DNA of 64,000 bases from an uncultured OM182 clade bacterium (GTDB lineage Bacteria > Pseudomonadota > Gammaproteobacteria > Pseudomonadales > Azotimanducaceae). Below are positions 10,293 to 20,414 of the stretch, in pieces (the first letter of the stretch is position 1; each line of letters opens with the position of its first letter). The position numbers were made by a program, and so were the translations under genes. The stretch spans positions 41,505-105,504 of the forward strand of contig CAJJAA010000013.1 of assembly GCA_905182025.1 (NCBI GenBank), in the 5' to 3' direction. The notes beneath the pieces are model-generated. The model was given only the letters and a program-made list of their open reading frames with translations, was not told the origin of the DNA and did no database searches.

Positions 10293-11252
10293 TTAGATCG
10301 TATCGTCCGGTTGATCGAGAAATTCACTCAGACCATAACCAACCCTTTCGCCGTCAAGCGTATACTGGGTCATACCTTCGCCAATATAGGTCATCTGTTC
10401 CGAGCGTCGATTGCGCAAAGGGATAAACCCCTGAACCTTTCCTTGGACGATATGTTTGTCACCATTTTCCAGTTTGACCTTAGCGGTGAAATCTTTGTGA
10501 AAACGGCTATCGGGCTCGAAGTTAACCGATAGATCAAGATCAGTAACCCGAATGAACTCATCGCCCTTATGGAACATGCCGCCCTTTCGGTCCCCGACGA
10601 TCGATAAGACCATGCCAAGGTCATCACCATAATTACCGGTAATCCAACGATAGGAAGGAATGGACTGCCAGTACCTTGGACCCCATGAATGGTCCCGCAG
10701 ACCATGACCGTTTATTAAAATGGGTGCTTCGCCCTCGATTTGAATGGTGCCGCTGACTTTCATATGTTGTTCATAGTGAGCGCGAGCAAAATCATTACCG
10801 TCATCAGGTTCACCGACATGGCCATATATTGGACCGACGCCGTCGTGCACGAGCTCTATCTTGAGTTTCCTAAAAGGATTCGACTTAAAGGCCTTACTCG
10901 GATCTTTCATATCTGTGGGATTGGCCATATACAAGGCTGAGCCTTCGTAGGTGGTCCGAATTTTCTCACCTGCAACGAGCACTTCAATTTTCGCCCCACC
11001 CGCATCCCAACCATCATTGTGAGAGATTTCAGGTTTTTTATAGTTGAAGAATGCCGAGCCATCGTCGTTATAAACGATCACCGTCATTTCCGCATAACCC
11101 TCATTGGCTCGATTTCCCATGCGAATGAAACCACCGCGATTGTGGGTCGTGTCAAAGAAGTTGAAGTAAACTGACTCGTTGAAATTCTCTTCAGGGCCAA
11201 GCGGATGTGTGTAATCGTCTTCCGGCTTAACATTACCAACGATCTTAACCAT
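10293..11252 (-). CDS. Uncharacterised lipocalin/AttH-like protein (DUF7064/DUF7065-like)
   Basis: Long ORF with FNFFDTTHNRGGFIRMGNRANEGYAEM and GHGLRDHSWGPRYWQSIPSYRWITGNYGDDLG motifs typical of this family. Confidence 0.6.
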   Translation of the reverse strand: MVKIVGNVKPEDDYTHPLGPEENFNESVYFNFFDTTHNRGGFIRMGNRANEGYAEMTVIVYNDDGSAFFNYKKPEISHNDGWDAGGAKIEVLVAGEKIRTTYEGSALYMANPTDMKDPSKAFKSNPFRKLKIELVHDGVGPIYGHVGEPDDGNDFARAHYEQHMKVSGTIQIEGEAPILINGHGLRDHSWGPRYWQSIPSYRWITGNYGDDLGMVLSIVGDRKGGMFHKGDEFIRVTDLDLSVNFEPDSRFHKDFTAKVKLENGDKHIVQGKVQGFIPLRNRRSEQMTYIGEGMTQYTLDGERVGYGLSEFLDQPDDTI

Positions 11253-11447
11253 TTGAATATTCTCCTTGCGCTGACTCAGCGATAAGTAAAACGTTTATCA
11301 AAAACAGTGAACTTTATTAATCAGATTGTCTCCAAGACATGCTACATCATCCATTTCATCGAGTATAATGCCCTGATATTGCACTCGGACCATCATGCTC
11401 AAGCGGGTCATTACCAAAAGGACAGTCAGTTGAATATACAAGACAAT

Positions 11448-12047
11448 ATGTCATCGATTATGAAGATGGAATCCGACGCCATCGCGAGCGTTAAGGTCAA
11501 TGATGAGTTTGAAAAAGCGGTTCTCTTTATTAAGAACCGCAGTGGCAAGGTCATCACGACGGGCATCGGCAAAGCCGGCTTCGTCGCTAACCGGTTTGCT
11601 GCAACCCTTTCTTCGACTGGCACGCCCGCTTTTTACATACATCCAGCAGAAGCCGGACATGGTGATCTTGGCATGTTGGGCGAAGGTGACGTCATTGTAG
11701 CTTTCTCAACCAGTGGTAAATCCATCGAAGTCGTTGAGATGTTACAAATGGCAGCAGAATTCGGCGTAGATCATGTCATCGGGGTCACATCTCACACTGA
11801 TTCTCCGCTTCGAGACCTCAGTACCTTCACCTTGGATATGGGACCGGATATTGAAGAGGCCTGTCCGTTGAACTTAACGCCCAGCACATCGATTGCAGTT
11901 ATGTCAGCAATTTGCGACGCCATCAGCCTGACACTACTTGAGCTGAACGAATTCAGTAAGCAGGAATACGGTAGACGCCACCACAAAGGTTATCTAGGCT
12001 CAGTCGCCAGAGCTTCACACAAATACGACAGTGAGGCGGATGATTGA
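11448..12047 (+). CDS. SIS-domain sugar-phosphate isomerase-like protein (KpsF/GutQ-like, no CBS domains)
   Basis: GKVITTGIGKAGFVANRFAATLSSTGTPAFYIHPAEAGHGDLGMLGEGDVIVAFSTSGKSIEVVEM; ORF ends without CBS domains. ORF opens at 11307; TTG 11430 or ATG 11448 plausible starts. Confidence 0.82.
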   Translation: MSSIMKMESDAIASVKVNDEFEKAVLFIKNRSGKVITTGIGKAGFVANRFAATLSSTGTPAFYIHPAEAGHGDLGMLGEGDVIVAFSTSGKSIEVVEMLQMAAEFGVDHVIGVTSHTDSPLRDLSTFTLDMGPDIEEACPLNLTPSTSIAVMSAICDAISLTLLELNEFSKQEYGRRHHKGYLGSVARASHKYDSEADD

Positions 12048-12943
12048 ATAATCCATCGCTCTTAGACCCTGCTTATGTTGCGCAACAGTATGTTCAGGAA
12101 GTAAAGACTGCAATCGGCAAAGACAATCTTAAGATTAACATTGTCGGCATCATTGCGAGTCAAGACAAACCCTCCCTCGCCTATGCCAATGCTACTAAGC
12201 AAAAATTCAATGACATCGGTATAAGCTACGATCTGAGATCGGTCGAACGTTTAGATCTCGAATCTATCATCACAGACTTGAACGATGATGACAGCGTTCA
12301 TGGAATTTTCATTTACTTCCCAGTCTTCAATAACCGACAAGATGACTACCTTCGCAATTTGGTCGACTATAGAAAAGACATAGAAGCGGGCAGCAACTAT
12401 TGGACTCGTAAGTTGTATAACAATGACCGCTTTGTAAACGTGGCAAAGTCTCACAAGGCATTGTTACCGTGCACGCCTTTAGCCATCGTAAAAATGCTAA
12501 CGCATGTCGGTGTCTACAATCCGAACGAAGCAAGACCCATTCAGAATAAAGTCGTGACCATATTCAATCGTAGTGAAGTCATTGGCCGTCCGCTTGCGGT
12601 GATGATGTCCAATGATGGCGCAACGATTTACAGTTTCGATGAAAACGGACCACTGAAATTTGAAAATGCGCAACCGTCAGAAATCAAAATTACTCGAACG
12701 CAGGCATTGCGGCAGTCTGACATCGTCGTAACGGGCGTACCCAATAGTAAGTTTGAAAAAGTGAGTGCGTCTGAAATACAGCCAGGTACTGTTTGCATTA
12801 ACTTCTCAAGCACGCCTAATTTCAACGACGACGTTAACACCCATACGGACATCTATATCCCTCGAGTTGGCCCGATGACAGTTGCCATGTGCATGAGGAA
12901 TACGCTTCGGCTCTATATGAACTTTCATCAGGACAAAAATTGA
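12044..12943 (+). CDS. NAD-dependent methylenetetrahydrofolate dehydrogenase, yeast MTD1-like (FolD superfamily)
   Basis: DDSVHGIFIYFPVFNNRQDDYLRNLV, LLPCTPLAIVKML, FNRSEVIGRPLAVMMSNDGATIYSFDENG, TVCINFSSTPNFNDDV, MTVAMCMRNTLRL closely resemble recalled MTD1 sequence; TTG start overlaps the preceding TGA. Confidence 0.8.
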   Translation: MNNPSLLDPAYVAQQYVQEVKTAIGKDNLKINIVGIIASQDKPSLAYANATKQKFNDIGISYDLRSVERLDLESIITDLNDDDSVHGIFIYFPVFNNRQDDYLRNLVDYRKDIEAGSNYWTRKLYNNDRFVNVAKSHKALLPCTPLAIVKMLTHVGVYNPNEARPIQNKVVTIFNRSEVIGRPLAVMMSNDGATIYSFDENGPLKFENAQPSEIKITRTQALRQSDIVVTGVPNSKFEKVSASEIQPGTVCINFSSTPNFNDDVNTHTDIYIPRVGPMTVAMCMRNTLRLYMNFHQDKN

Positions 12944-13605
12944 ATCAGCAAAGCCTCCAAAGCTATCTCGACAAACTTTCGAGCAGTGCCGCAACGCCCG
13001 GCGGCGGAGCTGTTGCAGCACTTACAGGCGCACAAGCGGCCGCACTGATCTCAATGGTCTGTAACCTCACAAAGAGCAAGACCAAGCGCGCCGCAAGCAA
13101 CAGTGCAGACGATGATGCAAACGACAAACCAAACGATCAGGCAAAAGAAATACAGGCAATCAACAAGCGGGCAGAGCAAGCACGGGCACAGTTCGACCAG
13201 CTCGCTGACGATGATATCGAAGGCTTTACTGCGGTAATGACCGCATACAAAATGCCAAAGTCAAACCCGCAAGAGCGGTCTGATCAGCACACAACGTTAC
13301 AAGACGCGTTAAAACACGCAGCACAAGCACCACTGCAGACAGCGACTTTAGCGAGCAGTCTTGCTCAAGACATTCAACGTCTCAGTGAAATTGGCAACAA
13401 AAACCTCATTACTGACGTCGGTATTGCCGCATTATTGATACCCGCAACCGTACAAGCAGCAAGAATGAACGTGCTAATCAACCTATCATCAATGCAGGAT
13501 GAGCAGTTTATAAAAAATGCCCTGGCCGCTCTTGAATCGGCAACCAGCCAAGCTTCACCGCTGACTAAATTGGCCGACAGTATTTGTACGTCTCTTCTCA
13601 ATTGA
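12940..13605 (+). CDS. Formimidoyl-THF cyclodeaminase / methenyl-THF cyclohydrolase family (FchA/FTCD C-terminal)
   Basis: YLDKLSSSAATPGGGAVAALTGAQAAALISMVCNLTKSK is the FTCD_C signature; TTG start overlaps MTD1-like stop as TTGA; an upstream in-frame ATG at 12889 also exists. Confidence 0.82.
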   Translation: MNQQSLQSYLDKLSSSAATPGGGAVAALTGAQAAALISMVCNLTKSKTKRAASNSADDDANDKPNDQAKEIQAINKRAEQARAQFDQLADDDIEGFTAVMTAYKMPKSNPQERSDQHTTLQDALKHAAQAPLQTATLASSLAQDIQRLSEIGNKNLITDVGIAALLIPATVQAARMNVLINLSSMQDEQFIKNALAALESATSQASPLTKLADSICTSLLN

Positions 13606-15470
13606 TCGTCTCTACAGTGATCGCTCAAAACAAGTGTCCCGGCACCTCAATAAATTGCCTGAAGCTCATTGCAACAACGAGTACAAAATCCTACAACAAC
13701 ACCTATTTAATATTGCGAGGCATAGCCCTTGTGACACTGGTCAGCTTAATAAGCAGCTGCAGCCTCAAAATTCCCTACTTGAACTCAACCGAAAAAACAG
13801 AAAAGAGCACCAGTGCAGCCAGTCAATCTGAGTCAAACACATCACCGGCAAATCAAAAAAAACAAGCAGCGCCAAACTCAGCCTTAATGAAGAGGCAATT
13901 CGAAAACAAAATCGCCGACAAGGTTATCGATAACTACTTGATGTCTCGTACCGACCAGCGCCATGCAAGGAGTGAATTCCTGACTAGAGATGCTCTGCAA
14001 CAAAATGCTGTTCACCTGACGATCGCAAATGAACAGCTCCAACGCCTCGACCAAAAACTTCTCAGGGAAAAAAATCGGAATAGGACACGCCAGTTAGCGG
14101 CCTTGCAAGCATCACGGCAAAGAGTTGCGAGCCATTGGGCGGAACTGAACCATCTCAATGAATTGGATGCTCTTTGGCCAAAGCTCATCTTTGAACCTCT
14201 ATCAGAACGGGACTTAGCCGCTGAAGAAGACTATCTTTTGTCAACTAAGAGCAAACTGGTTGATCTGCAATTACGCATCACAGCGCAATATGCCGCCGGC
14301 CAGTTATATCCCGAACTACTCCTGACCGATTCAAAGAGTCGATTAAAAGCAGTTGTTAGATCGACAAGTAGAAGTCCGAATAAAGACAATCCCTACCTGT
14401 TGCGCTTTCAACAACAACTCTTATACGCATCCATCACAGATCAACAGAAGCAGCAGCGTTTTGAGGCCTTCACAGGTCGGTTCCATAAACTTATTCAACC
14501 CGCATTTAAAGCATTCCTAAGTTTTCTTGAGTCCTTGGACTCACAATCAAATATAGAAAAGCCTCTTCTGCTTACGGGTACTTTTGGCGCCGTTGATGCC
14601 AGCTTAAATAGAGAGCGCGTTAATCAACTTAAACTCAGCTTGGCCGACATCGATGAATCGATCGTCGAACTCGCGCCTAACATCAATATAAAAACACTTT
14701 ACGCTGACCCAGCTTATTTATTAGCCGATAAACCAAAACCTAAACAAATGGCGCTAAACCTTTTGACCTTGTACGTTGCAGACATCGAGTTTGAACTTAC
14801 CACCTGGTTTTACAGACGGCCAAGTGATGAGGTTTTGTTAGTCGCTGCCGACCAACTCAGTTCGGATATGATTCACTACGAAAATGGACAAGTCGCGTTC
14901 GACCTCGAAACAATGACGGCATTACCCGATTTTGAATATGAAAGCCTGGCCTATCAATTCGTCGTACCCGGTGCACACATGTTAGCCCCATGGACTGACC
15001 TTCATACGGGACAAAGCCCTATGGCTGATGCATTTACGTTGGCCTGGAATCAATACAGCCAAACACTACCGATTGCTAATCCGTCATTTTATGTTGAAGA
15101 CCTTTCACGCATCGGACATCGGGTCAGATATAAACGTTTCCTCACCAAAGCACTAGTCGATTTGCAACTGCATACAGGTCAATGGAGTGTTGAGGAGGCC
15201 GAGCTATTCATGTCGAGTCAACTGCCCTACCGTGAGGCTTTTATAGAAGCGGAAATAATTTCGATACTTAAACACCCGGGGAAAAACTTCGAAGCCTGGC
15301 AGTTGGCAGAATCGATTGAAGCAACGGTGACCGAGGTTATTGTTACGGGGCAATTATCGTTAAAAGAAACCCATCAGACGCTACTCCGAAATAGTCCTAT
15401 GGACCATAAGACACTCATGTTAGTACGACAATCGTTACTCAAAAGAAGTCAAAAAAACAGTACACAATAG
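13584..15470 (+). CDS. Predicted lipoprotein, divergent DUF885-like with degenerate active site
   Basis: Hydrophobic stretch then lipobox-like SLISSC (true start may be TTG near 13713); C-terminal half shows DUF885-like layout (VPGAHM..., RYKRFLTKALVDLQLHTGQWSVEEAELFM, HPGKNFEAWQLAESI). Confidence 0.6.
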   Translation: MYVSSQLIVSTVIAQNKCPGTSINCLKLIATTSTKSYNNTYLILRGIALVTLVSLISSCSLKIPYLNSTEKTEKSTSAASQSESNTSPANQKKQAAPNSALMKRQFENKIADKVIDNYLMSRTDQRHARSEFLTRDALQQNAVHLTIANEQLQRLDQKLLREKNRNRTRQLAALQASRQRVASHWAELNHLNELDALWPKLIFEPLSERDLAAEEDYLLSTKSKLVDLQLRITAQYAAGQLYPELLLTDSKSRLKAVVRSTSRSPNKDNPYLLRFQQQLLYASITDQQKQQRFEAFTGRFHKLIQPAFKAFLSFLESLDSQSNIEKPLLLTGTFGAVDASLNRERVNQLKLSLADIDESIVELAPNINIKTLYADPAYLLADKPKPKQMALNLLTLYVADIEFELTTWFYRRPSDEVLLVAADQLSSDMIHYENGQVAFDLETMTALPDFEYESLAYQFVVPGAHMLAPWTDLHTGQSPMADAFTLAWNQYSQTLPIANPSFYVEDLSRIGHRVRYKRFLTKALVDLQLHTGQWSVEEAELFMSSQLPYREAFIEAEIISILKHPGKNFEAWQLAESIEATVTEVIVTGQLSLKETHQTLLRNSPMDHKTLMLVRQSLLKRSQKNSTQ

Positions 15471-18807: not shown

Positions 18808-19401
18808 ATGAAACGACTCGGTATACTCGCTTCCCACCGAGGCACCAATTTTCAAGCCATCATTGATGCATGCCAGTCTGGCAAGGTCAACGCTACGCCG
18901 GTTCTGGCGATATCAAACAATTCAAAATCTGAAGCACTTGCTCGTGCAAACCGATCAGGAATAGCGACATTACACCTTTCGAGCCAAACCCATTGCAGTT
19001 CAACAGCGATAGACAGCGCTATGCTTGATGCCCTGCAAGCACACGAAGTCGATTTGGTCATTACCGCCGGGTATATGAAAAAACTCGGACCAAAAACCCT
19101 AAAAGCCTATGAGCGCAAGATTATCAATGTACATCCGTCGTTGCTGCCTAAACATGGTGGTAAAGGGATGTTCGGCATGAAGGTACACGAGTCTGTGATT
19201 CAATCCGGCGATTTACAAACAGGCATCACGATTCACTGGGTTGACAAAGAATATGACACAGGTCCCATCATCGCCCAGCAAGTTGTCGCCGTTGAACCCA
19301 ATGACACAGCCTTATCGTTGGCAAAAAAAGTACTAACTCATGAACACAACTTGCTAATTGAAACACTAGCTACCCTTATGCCCGATTGGAGTGACATATA
19401 A
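18808..19401 (+). CDS. purN: Phosphoribosylglycinamide formyltransferase
   Basis: ILASHRGTNFQAIIDA, GYMKKLG, INVHPSLLPKHGGKGMFGMKVHESVI, TGITIHWVDKEYDTGPIIAQ. Confidence 0.92.
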   Translation: MKRLGILASHRGTNFQAIIDACQSGKVNATPVLAISNNSKSEALARANRSGIATLHLSSQTHCSSTAIDSAMLDALQAHEVDLVITAGYMKKLGPKTLKAYERKIINVHPSLLPKHGGKGMFGMKVHESVIQSGDLQTGITIHWVDKEYDTGPIIAQQVVAVEPNDTALSLAKKVLTHEHNLLIETLATLMPDWSDI

Positions 19402-19403
19402 TA

Positions 19404-20414
19404 ATGATAACGAATCCAAGAGCACCAATCGCACTCATGACTTGCGAGTCAGGACGCCCCTTCGCAGAAGAAGTGGCCAAACACATGCAAATGGACCTCA
19501 TTCCAACCAATGAAACCTGGTTTGCCTGTGGCGAAGGAAAGATGGAAATTAAGTCCAATGTCAGAGGCCATGACGTTTATATTTTTCAATCCCCCGTCGG
19601 CGGCGTTGACGACCTATCGGTTTACGATAGATTCATCATGCTATTACACGCAATCGAAGCCGCCGCACTGTCCGATGCGCAATATATAACCGCGATCACG
19701 CCTTACTACCCGGGAGCCAGGCAGGACAAACGTAAAGGCAGAACCCGAGAGGGTATCACCGCAGGTCTATTTGCACGCATGCTACAAAGTGCAGGTGCAA
19801 ACCGAGTTGTCTCTGTCGAAATTCACAATGATGCGATCGCTGGAATGTTTAACCCGTCTCTGGCCCACTTGGAGAATGTATTTCTGACGAGACACCTGGT
19901 CGAGTGGCTGCAGAAAGAGAAAATCACCTGTGATGTGGTCGTATCACCGGATGTTGGCTATCTTGAGCGTGCTCGCGCCTATGCGGAAGAGCTATCGGCA
20001 GATCTTGCCGCGCTATCAAAAGAACGTGATTATTCAAAACCCAATCAGGTGTTTCGATCAACGTTAATCGGTGATGTTTCTGGTCAGAACGTTTTATTGG
20101 TTGACGATATCGTTGACTCAGGCGGATCAGTTGTTGCGGCAATCAGTGAGTTAAAAGAACGTGGCGCTAAGGATATCGTCGTTGCCTGCACGCACCCGAT
20201 AATGTCGGGGCCTGCTTGGGCGCGAATGTCGGAACTCAAAGAGCGTTCTATTAAGGAAGGTTGGAAATTTGATTTTGTCGGCACAAGCACCGTGCAACAC
20301 ACGGATACGCCTGATTGGTATCACGTATTCCACATAGAGAAGCTATTAGCGACGATCATTCAAAAAATCAATTCCAGGGGGAGCGTGACCCAAGTTCAGC
20401 AAGACAGAGAGTGA
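19404..20414 (+). CDS. prs: Ribose-phosphate pyrophosphokinase (divergent)
   Basis: TPYYPGARQDKRKGRTREGITAGLFARMLQSAGANRVVSVEIHNDAIAGMF; PRPP loop VLLVDDIVDSGGSV. Confidence 0.85.
   Translation: MITNPRAPIALMTCESGRPFAEEVAKHMQMDLIPTNETWFACGEGKMEIKSNVRGHDVYIFQSPVGGVDDLSVYDRFIMLLHAIEAAALSDAQYITAITPYYPGARQDKRKGRTREGITAGLFARMLQSAGANRVVSVEIHNDAIAGMFNPSLAHLENVFLTRHLVEWLQKEKITCDVVVSPDVGYLERARAYAEELSADLAALSKERDYSKPNQVFRSTLIGDVSGQNVLLVDDIVDSGGSVVAAISELKERGAKDIVVACTHPIMSGPAWARMSELKERSIKEGWKFDFVGTSTVQHTDTPDWYHVFHIEKLLATIIQKINSRGSVTQVQQDRE

Follow-up and report, generated by a model that had tools for sequence, protein, structure and literature searches.

An MTD1-type dehydrogenase gene overlapping an FchA-like gene: a probable split replacement for bifunctional FolD in an uncultured OM182 clade bacterium

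Two overlapping genes on the plus strand (12044-13605) of the window, the 64,000-nucleotide stretch of DNA from an uncultured OM182 clade bacterium (Azotimanducaceae) analysed here, encode an MTD1-type dehydrogenase and an FchA-like protein, and they very probably constitute a split replacement for the bifunctional FolD. According to the proposed mechanism, the MTD1-type protein would oxidise 5,10-methylene-THF, with NAD+ as the most likely acceptor, and yield 5,10-methenyl-THF; it would be unable to hydrolyse methenyl-THF, since the active site Lys and Gln of FolD are Thr and Tyr in this protein. The FchA-like partner would then turn methenyl-THF into 10-formyl-THF, which could supply PurN and other formyl transfers. 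We infer both enzyme activities, the use of NAD and the oxidative direction from the findings described in the following.

The positions of the genes are collected in Table 1. The short overlap between the members of the pair likely means that their translation is coupled. The start of the FchA-like gene was set at TTG 12940, because the homology begins there; the GTG at 12889, given by the mechanical open reading frame list, is the less likely start. The SIS-domain gene stands directly 5' of the pair in nearly all Azotimanducaceae loci; it was not found upstream of the pair in the family loci L027 and L083, nor in the MTD1-type loci of Chlorobiia or Desulfuromonadales. On the minus strand a gene for a DUF7064/DUF7065 protein (10293-11252) is divergent from the SIS-MTD1-FchA operon. 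Downstream of the pair, an open reading frame (13584-15470) has a TTG start that overlaps the FchA-like gene; it matches DUF885 weakly and has a lipoprotein-like Cys in its interior (SLISSCSL). Further along, a ribose-phosphate diphosphokinase-like gene follows purN immediately (18808-20414 together), both being relevant to purine synthesis.

Table 1. Location of the gene pair and of related features in the window
Feature	Position	Strand	Remarks
KdsD/GutQ-like SIS-domain sugar-phosphate isomerase	11307..12047	+	CBS domains absent; upstream of the pair
Overlap of SIS-domain gene stop and dehydrogenase start	12044..12047	+	TTGA, 4 bases
MTD1-type methylene-THF dehydrogenase	12044..12943	+	299 aa, TTG start; predicted monofunctional, probably NAD-dependent
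Overlap of dehydrogenase stop and FchA-like start	12940..12943	+	TTGA, 4 nt
FchA-like methenyl-THF cyclohydrolase (predicted)	12940..13605	+	FTCD_C domain, 221 aa, TTG start 12940
PurN, 10-formyl-THF-dependent GAR transformylase	18808..19401	+	TIGR00639 175 bits, cut-off 150

The 299-aa protein is of MTD1 type, with yeast MTD1 a nearer relative than FolD both in sequence and in fold. It carries the Pfam domains PF00763 and PF02882 (59 and 60 bits), and stays below the cut-off of every NCBIfam FolD equivalog (best score 74 bits versus 411). Against PDB sequences yeast MTD1 (1edz) was matched with 211 bits and the best FolD with 54 bits. An AlphaFold2 model of the dehydrogenase (25 native sequences as input, mean pLDDT 89.7) had 1edz as its top fold match (E 2e-29, TM 0.89, 37% identity), and the FolD/MTHFD folds ranked below it (E 1e-19 or weaker, TM about 0.78, about 20% identity). 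A phylogeny that included 30 FolD sequences split bacterial MTD1-type proteins and yeast MTD1 from FolD with a support of 100/100; the placement of yeast MTD1 as the sister lineage of the entire bacterial MTD1 type is weak (82/64), and its exact attachment is unsure because of its long branch. The MtdA N-terminal domain PF09176 had no match in a Pfam search of the window protein alone.

In human MTHFD1 the critical residues are Tyr52, Lys56, Gln100 and Asp125 (PMC6443876). According to the alignment the window protein retains the Tyr (Y47), and Thr51, Tyr91 and Glu114 stand in place of the Lys, Gln and Asp of FolD, respectively. Identical replacements are found in yeast MTD1, where the equivalent segments of 1edz read YATWT, VYFPVF and KDVEG. 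Among 56 aligned bacterial MTD1-type proteins Tyr91 and Glu114 are invariant and Thr51 is kept in 54 (Ala in two), while Lys, Gln and Asp occur in all 30 aligned FolD sequences; thus the three replacements occur together in 54/56 bacterial MTD1-type proteins versus 0/30 FolD. Additionally, directly after the second Rossmann strand (194-198) stands an Asp (Asp199) that the bacterial MTD1-type proteins and yeast MTD1 share without exception, and 30/30 FolD have a gap there. Acidic residues at the end of strand 2 of a Rossmann fold favour NAD over NADP, and the MTD1-type protein is accordingly predicted to use NAD.

The preliminary description had already placed both genes at 12044-13605, and the open reading frames and the Pfam domains confirmed them. 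Its view that the dehydrogenase is nearer to yeast MTD1 than to bacterial FolD is borne out by the scores and TM values above, and the phylogeny it had proposed puts the protein with yeast MTD1, outside FolD. The Thr that it had read at the FolD Lys position in the YANAT motif was upheld as Thr51 in proper alignments; the yeast motif that it gave, YADWT, was incorrect, the 1edz chain having YATWT. The changes of Gln to Tyr (Y91) and of Asp to Glu (E114) are further diagnostic features that it had not listed; in view of the conservation described above, the replacements are not accidental.

The distribution of the pair was followed in 151 Azotimanducaceae genomes, the counts of which are not phylogenetically independent; the MTD1-type genes scored more than 340 bits to the window protein, as compared with less than 45 bits for FolD. 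The MTD1-type gene occurs in 45 of the 151 genomes and an adjacent FchA in every one of these 45, in 44 cases by protein search and in one (G117, L119) by profile; in G023 the FchA is split over two contig ends. FolD is absent from 43 of the 45, the genomes G064 and G128 having both the pair and FolD. As for the remaining genomes, FolD alone is present in 96/151 and neither type in 10/151. The pair and FolD are therefore almost always mutually exclusive in the family. In an additional family genome (G090) an FchA-like gene is truncated by the contig end, and G125 has a second, partial dehydrogenase-cyclohydrolase pair at a contig edge (L078, L079).

The window's genome (87% complete) has no PF00763 gene besides the MTD1-type gene, and neither formate-THF ligase (Fhs) nor the formiminotransferase domain PF02971 was found by family searches of the genome. 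The closest relative (G038), with a protein 92% identical to that of the window, has a matching gene set, the pair being present and FolD and Fhs absent; since this genome is 99% complete, it is unlikely that the absence of FolD and Fhs results from an assembly gap. The search for a canonical folD and the survey of co-occurrence, both suggested in the preliminary description, thus ended without any folD in this genome and with FchA beside the dehydrogenase in all MTD1-type genomes of the family. Its proposal that the pair replaces FolD also agrees with the other lineages described below, where FchA is present if FolD is missing and vice versa, and such a replacement appears probable from these gene distributions.

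PurN, a consumer of 10-formyl-THF, is encoded in the same genome (TIGR00639 above cut-off). Since there is no other FolD-domain gene and no Fhs but PurN is present, the pair is the only route found from methylene-THF to 10-formyl-THF in the window's genome. Without Fhs, 10-formyl-THF must derive from methylene-THF, therefore the pair most likely works in the oxidative direction here. The oxidative, NAD-linked direction, which the preliminary description had also put forward, is supported indirectly by the lack of Fhs in this genome and its nearest relatives, by PurN and by the Asp at the NAD position. That the pair is mainly reductive, assimilating formate together with Fhs along the reductive glycine route, seems improbable to us: Fhs is absent from the window's genome and from its two MTD1-type genus mates, and NAD-linked enzymes usually operate in oxidation. 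In favour of this alternative, Fhs was found in 10 of the 45 MTD1-type family genomes, so the reductive direction would be possible there, and a reductive glycine route has been proposed for Halieaceae isolates with fhs and folD (PMC10100682). The frequency of Fhs did not differ significantly between MTD1-type (10/45) and FolD-only genomes (about 36/96; p = 0.06, computed with 37/96). Among the genomes of the window's own genus, three carry the pair without Fhs and two (G061 and G079) have FolD with Fhs, which suggests that the C1 module was exchanged inside one genus. The canonical folD and fhs of G061 lie about 5 kb apart (L126), and G079 likewise carries both genes (L127).

MTD1-type genes also occur in Chlorobiia and Desulfuromonadales, where the pattern could be tested independently. 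In 98 Chlorobiia genomes, where the types were told apart by the PF00763 score (about 60-73 bits versus more than 100), 15 had an MTD1-type gene and FchA without FolD, 13 had an MTD1-type gene and FolD without FchA, and none of the MTD1-type genomes had both FchA and FolD. In the cultured Chlorobaculum thiosulfatiphilum DSM 249 the MTD1-type gene adjoins FchA (L065) and FolD is lacking. Neither partner was seen in the MAG G632, which has an MTD1-type gene, and in genome G617, which has just a short fragment of uncertain type. Chlorobiia without an MTD1-type gene lacked FchA, except for one sub-threshold match. Seven Desulfuromonadales genomes have MTD1-type genes together with FolD; FchA is absent from them, and an FchA adjoining the MTD1-type gene was looked for in this order and not found. 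Taken together, the MTD1-type genomes of the two groups comprise 15 with FchA without FolD, 20 with FolD without FchA, none with both and one with neither. Fisher's exact test of this exclusion gave p = 2e-7 for Chlorobiia and 1e-14 for the pooled set, values which are optimistic because the genomes share ancestry. A cyclohydrolase source, either FchA or FolD, accompanies the MTD1-type gene almost everywhere, as is expected if MTD1-type proteins have no cyclohydrolase activity. The possibility that the dehydrogenase is a divergent, still bifunctional FolD and that the FchA-like gene is auxiliary or redundant is consequently very unlikely in our judgement: the superfamily and the fold are common, and G064 and G128 carry FolD besides the pair, but the catalytic Lys, Gln and Asp are all replaced as in yeast MTD1, and FchA or canonical FolD goes with the MTD1-type gene everywhere tested except G632 and G617. 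Beyond the window's genome, no MTD1-type gene was detected among 399 Pseudomonadota genomes at E <= 1e-20, and a wide spread of the type in Pseudomonadota is rejected at this sampling.

The 221-aa protein is a member of the FTCD_C family (PF04961, 175 bits, cut-off 24.5). Its nearest solved relatives are the methenyl-THF cyclohydrolase 7vg4, which is the best match, and cyclodeaminases (1o5h and 1tt9 among the matches). The NCBIfam FchA equivalog NF045657 was not reached (152.7 bits versus 275), therefore the protein is named FchA-like. A search for the formiminotransferase PF02971 remained negative in all 151 family genomes, the Thermotoga maritima control being positive, which makes a cyclodeaminase role unlikely. 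It is hardly credible that the protein merely stands beside the dehydrogenase and serves histidine or purine degradation as a formimino-THF cyclodeaminase: the family does contain such enzymes and the score is under the FchA cut-off, but no source of formimino-THF was found in the family, the top structural relative is annotated as a cyclohydrolase, and the distribution of the FTCD_C gene tracks the loss of FolD.

FolD is widespread in bacteria. The lineage studied here, in which a split and probably NAD-linked pair appears to have replaced it, suggests that the two activities are separable, and the redox coupling changeable, in ordinary heterotrophs. The pattern of either FchA or FolD predicts, from genomes alone, MTD1-type proteins without cyclohydrolase activity, and it should serve as a warning for annotation pipelines that such proteins are not to be named bifunctional FolD. 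FolD is also under study as an antibacterial drug target, e.g. in Pseudomonas aeruginosa (PMC3338484). More tentatively, and with less than even confidence, we can imagine that bacteria have, within the FolD superfamily, an overlooked branch of MTD1 type which shifts one-carbon oxidation from NADP to NAD and which, where it displaces FolD, must recruit an FchA-type cyclohydrolase; fungal MTD1 would then descend from this branch or share an ancient origin with it.

The split pair MtdA/Fch is known in methylotrophs and MTD1 is known from fungi, and certain bacteria are mentioned in the CDD record on the NAD-binding domain of MTD1. Separate dehydrogenase and cyclohydrolase are also known in acetogens as FolD/FchA (PMC9618320). 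A gene-family survey from 2024 covers MTD1 in fungi, and no description of a bacterial MTD1-type protein was found in it (PMC11064299). In the openly accessible part of the literature no description was found of an MTD1-type and FchA pair as a replacement of FolD.

Among the known systems, yeast MTD1 (1edz/1ee9), a monofunctional NAD-dependent enzyme, resembles the window's dehydrogenase in sequence, in fold, in the Thr/Tyr/Glu replacements and in the Asp at the NAD position; unlike the yeast protein the window's dehydrogenase is bacterial and is encoded beside a cyclohydrolase gene, whereas yeast obtains its cyclohydrolase from trifunctional C1-THF synthases (ADE3, MIS1). The pair is like MtdA and Fch of Methylobacterium/Methylorubrum extorquens in that a separate dehydrogenase and an FTCD_C-family cyclohydrolase replace FolD; however, MtdA, which is NADP-linked in methylotrophy, belongs to another family, and the window protein had no MtdA Pfam match. 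FolD and FchA of acetogens such as Clostridium autoethanogenum likewise combine a FolD-superfamily dehydrogenase with an FchA cyclohydrolase, but that dehydrogenase goes by the name FolD and acts in the Wood-Ljungdahl pathway (PMC9618320). With the canonical bifunctional FolD the pair shares the superfamily and the overall reaction sequence; FolD differs in that it keeps the Lys, Gln and Asp and both activities in one protein, and in the family it is nearly exclusive with the pair.
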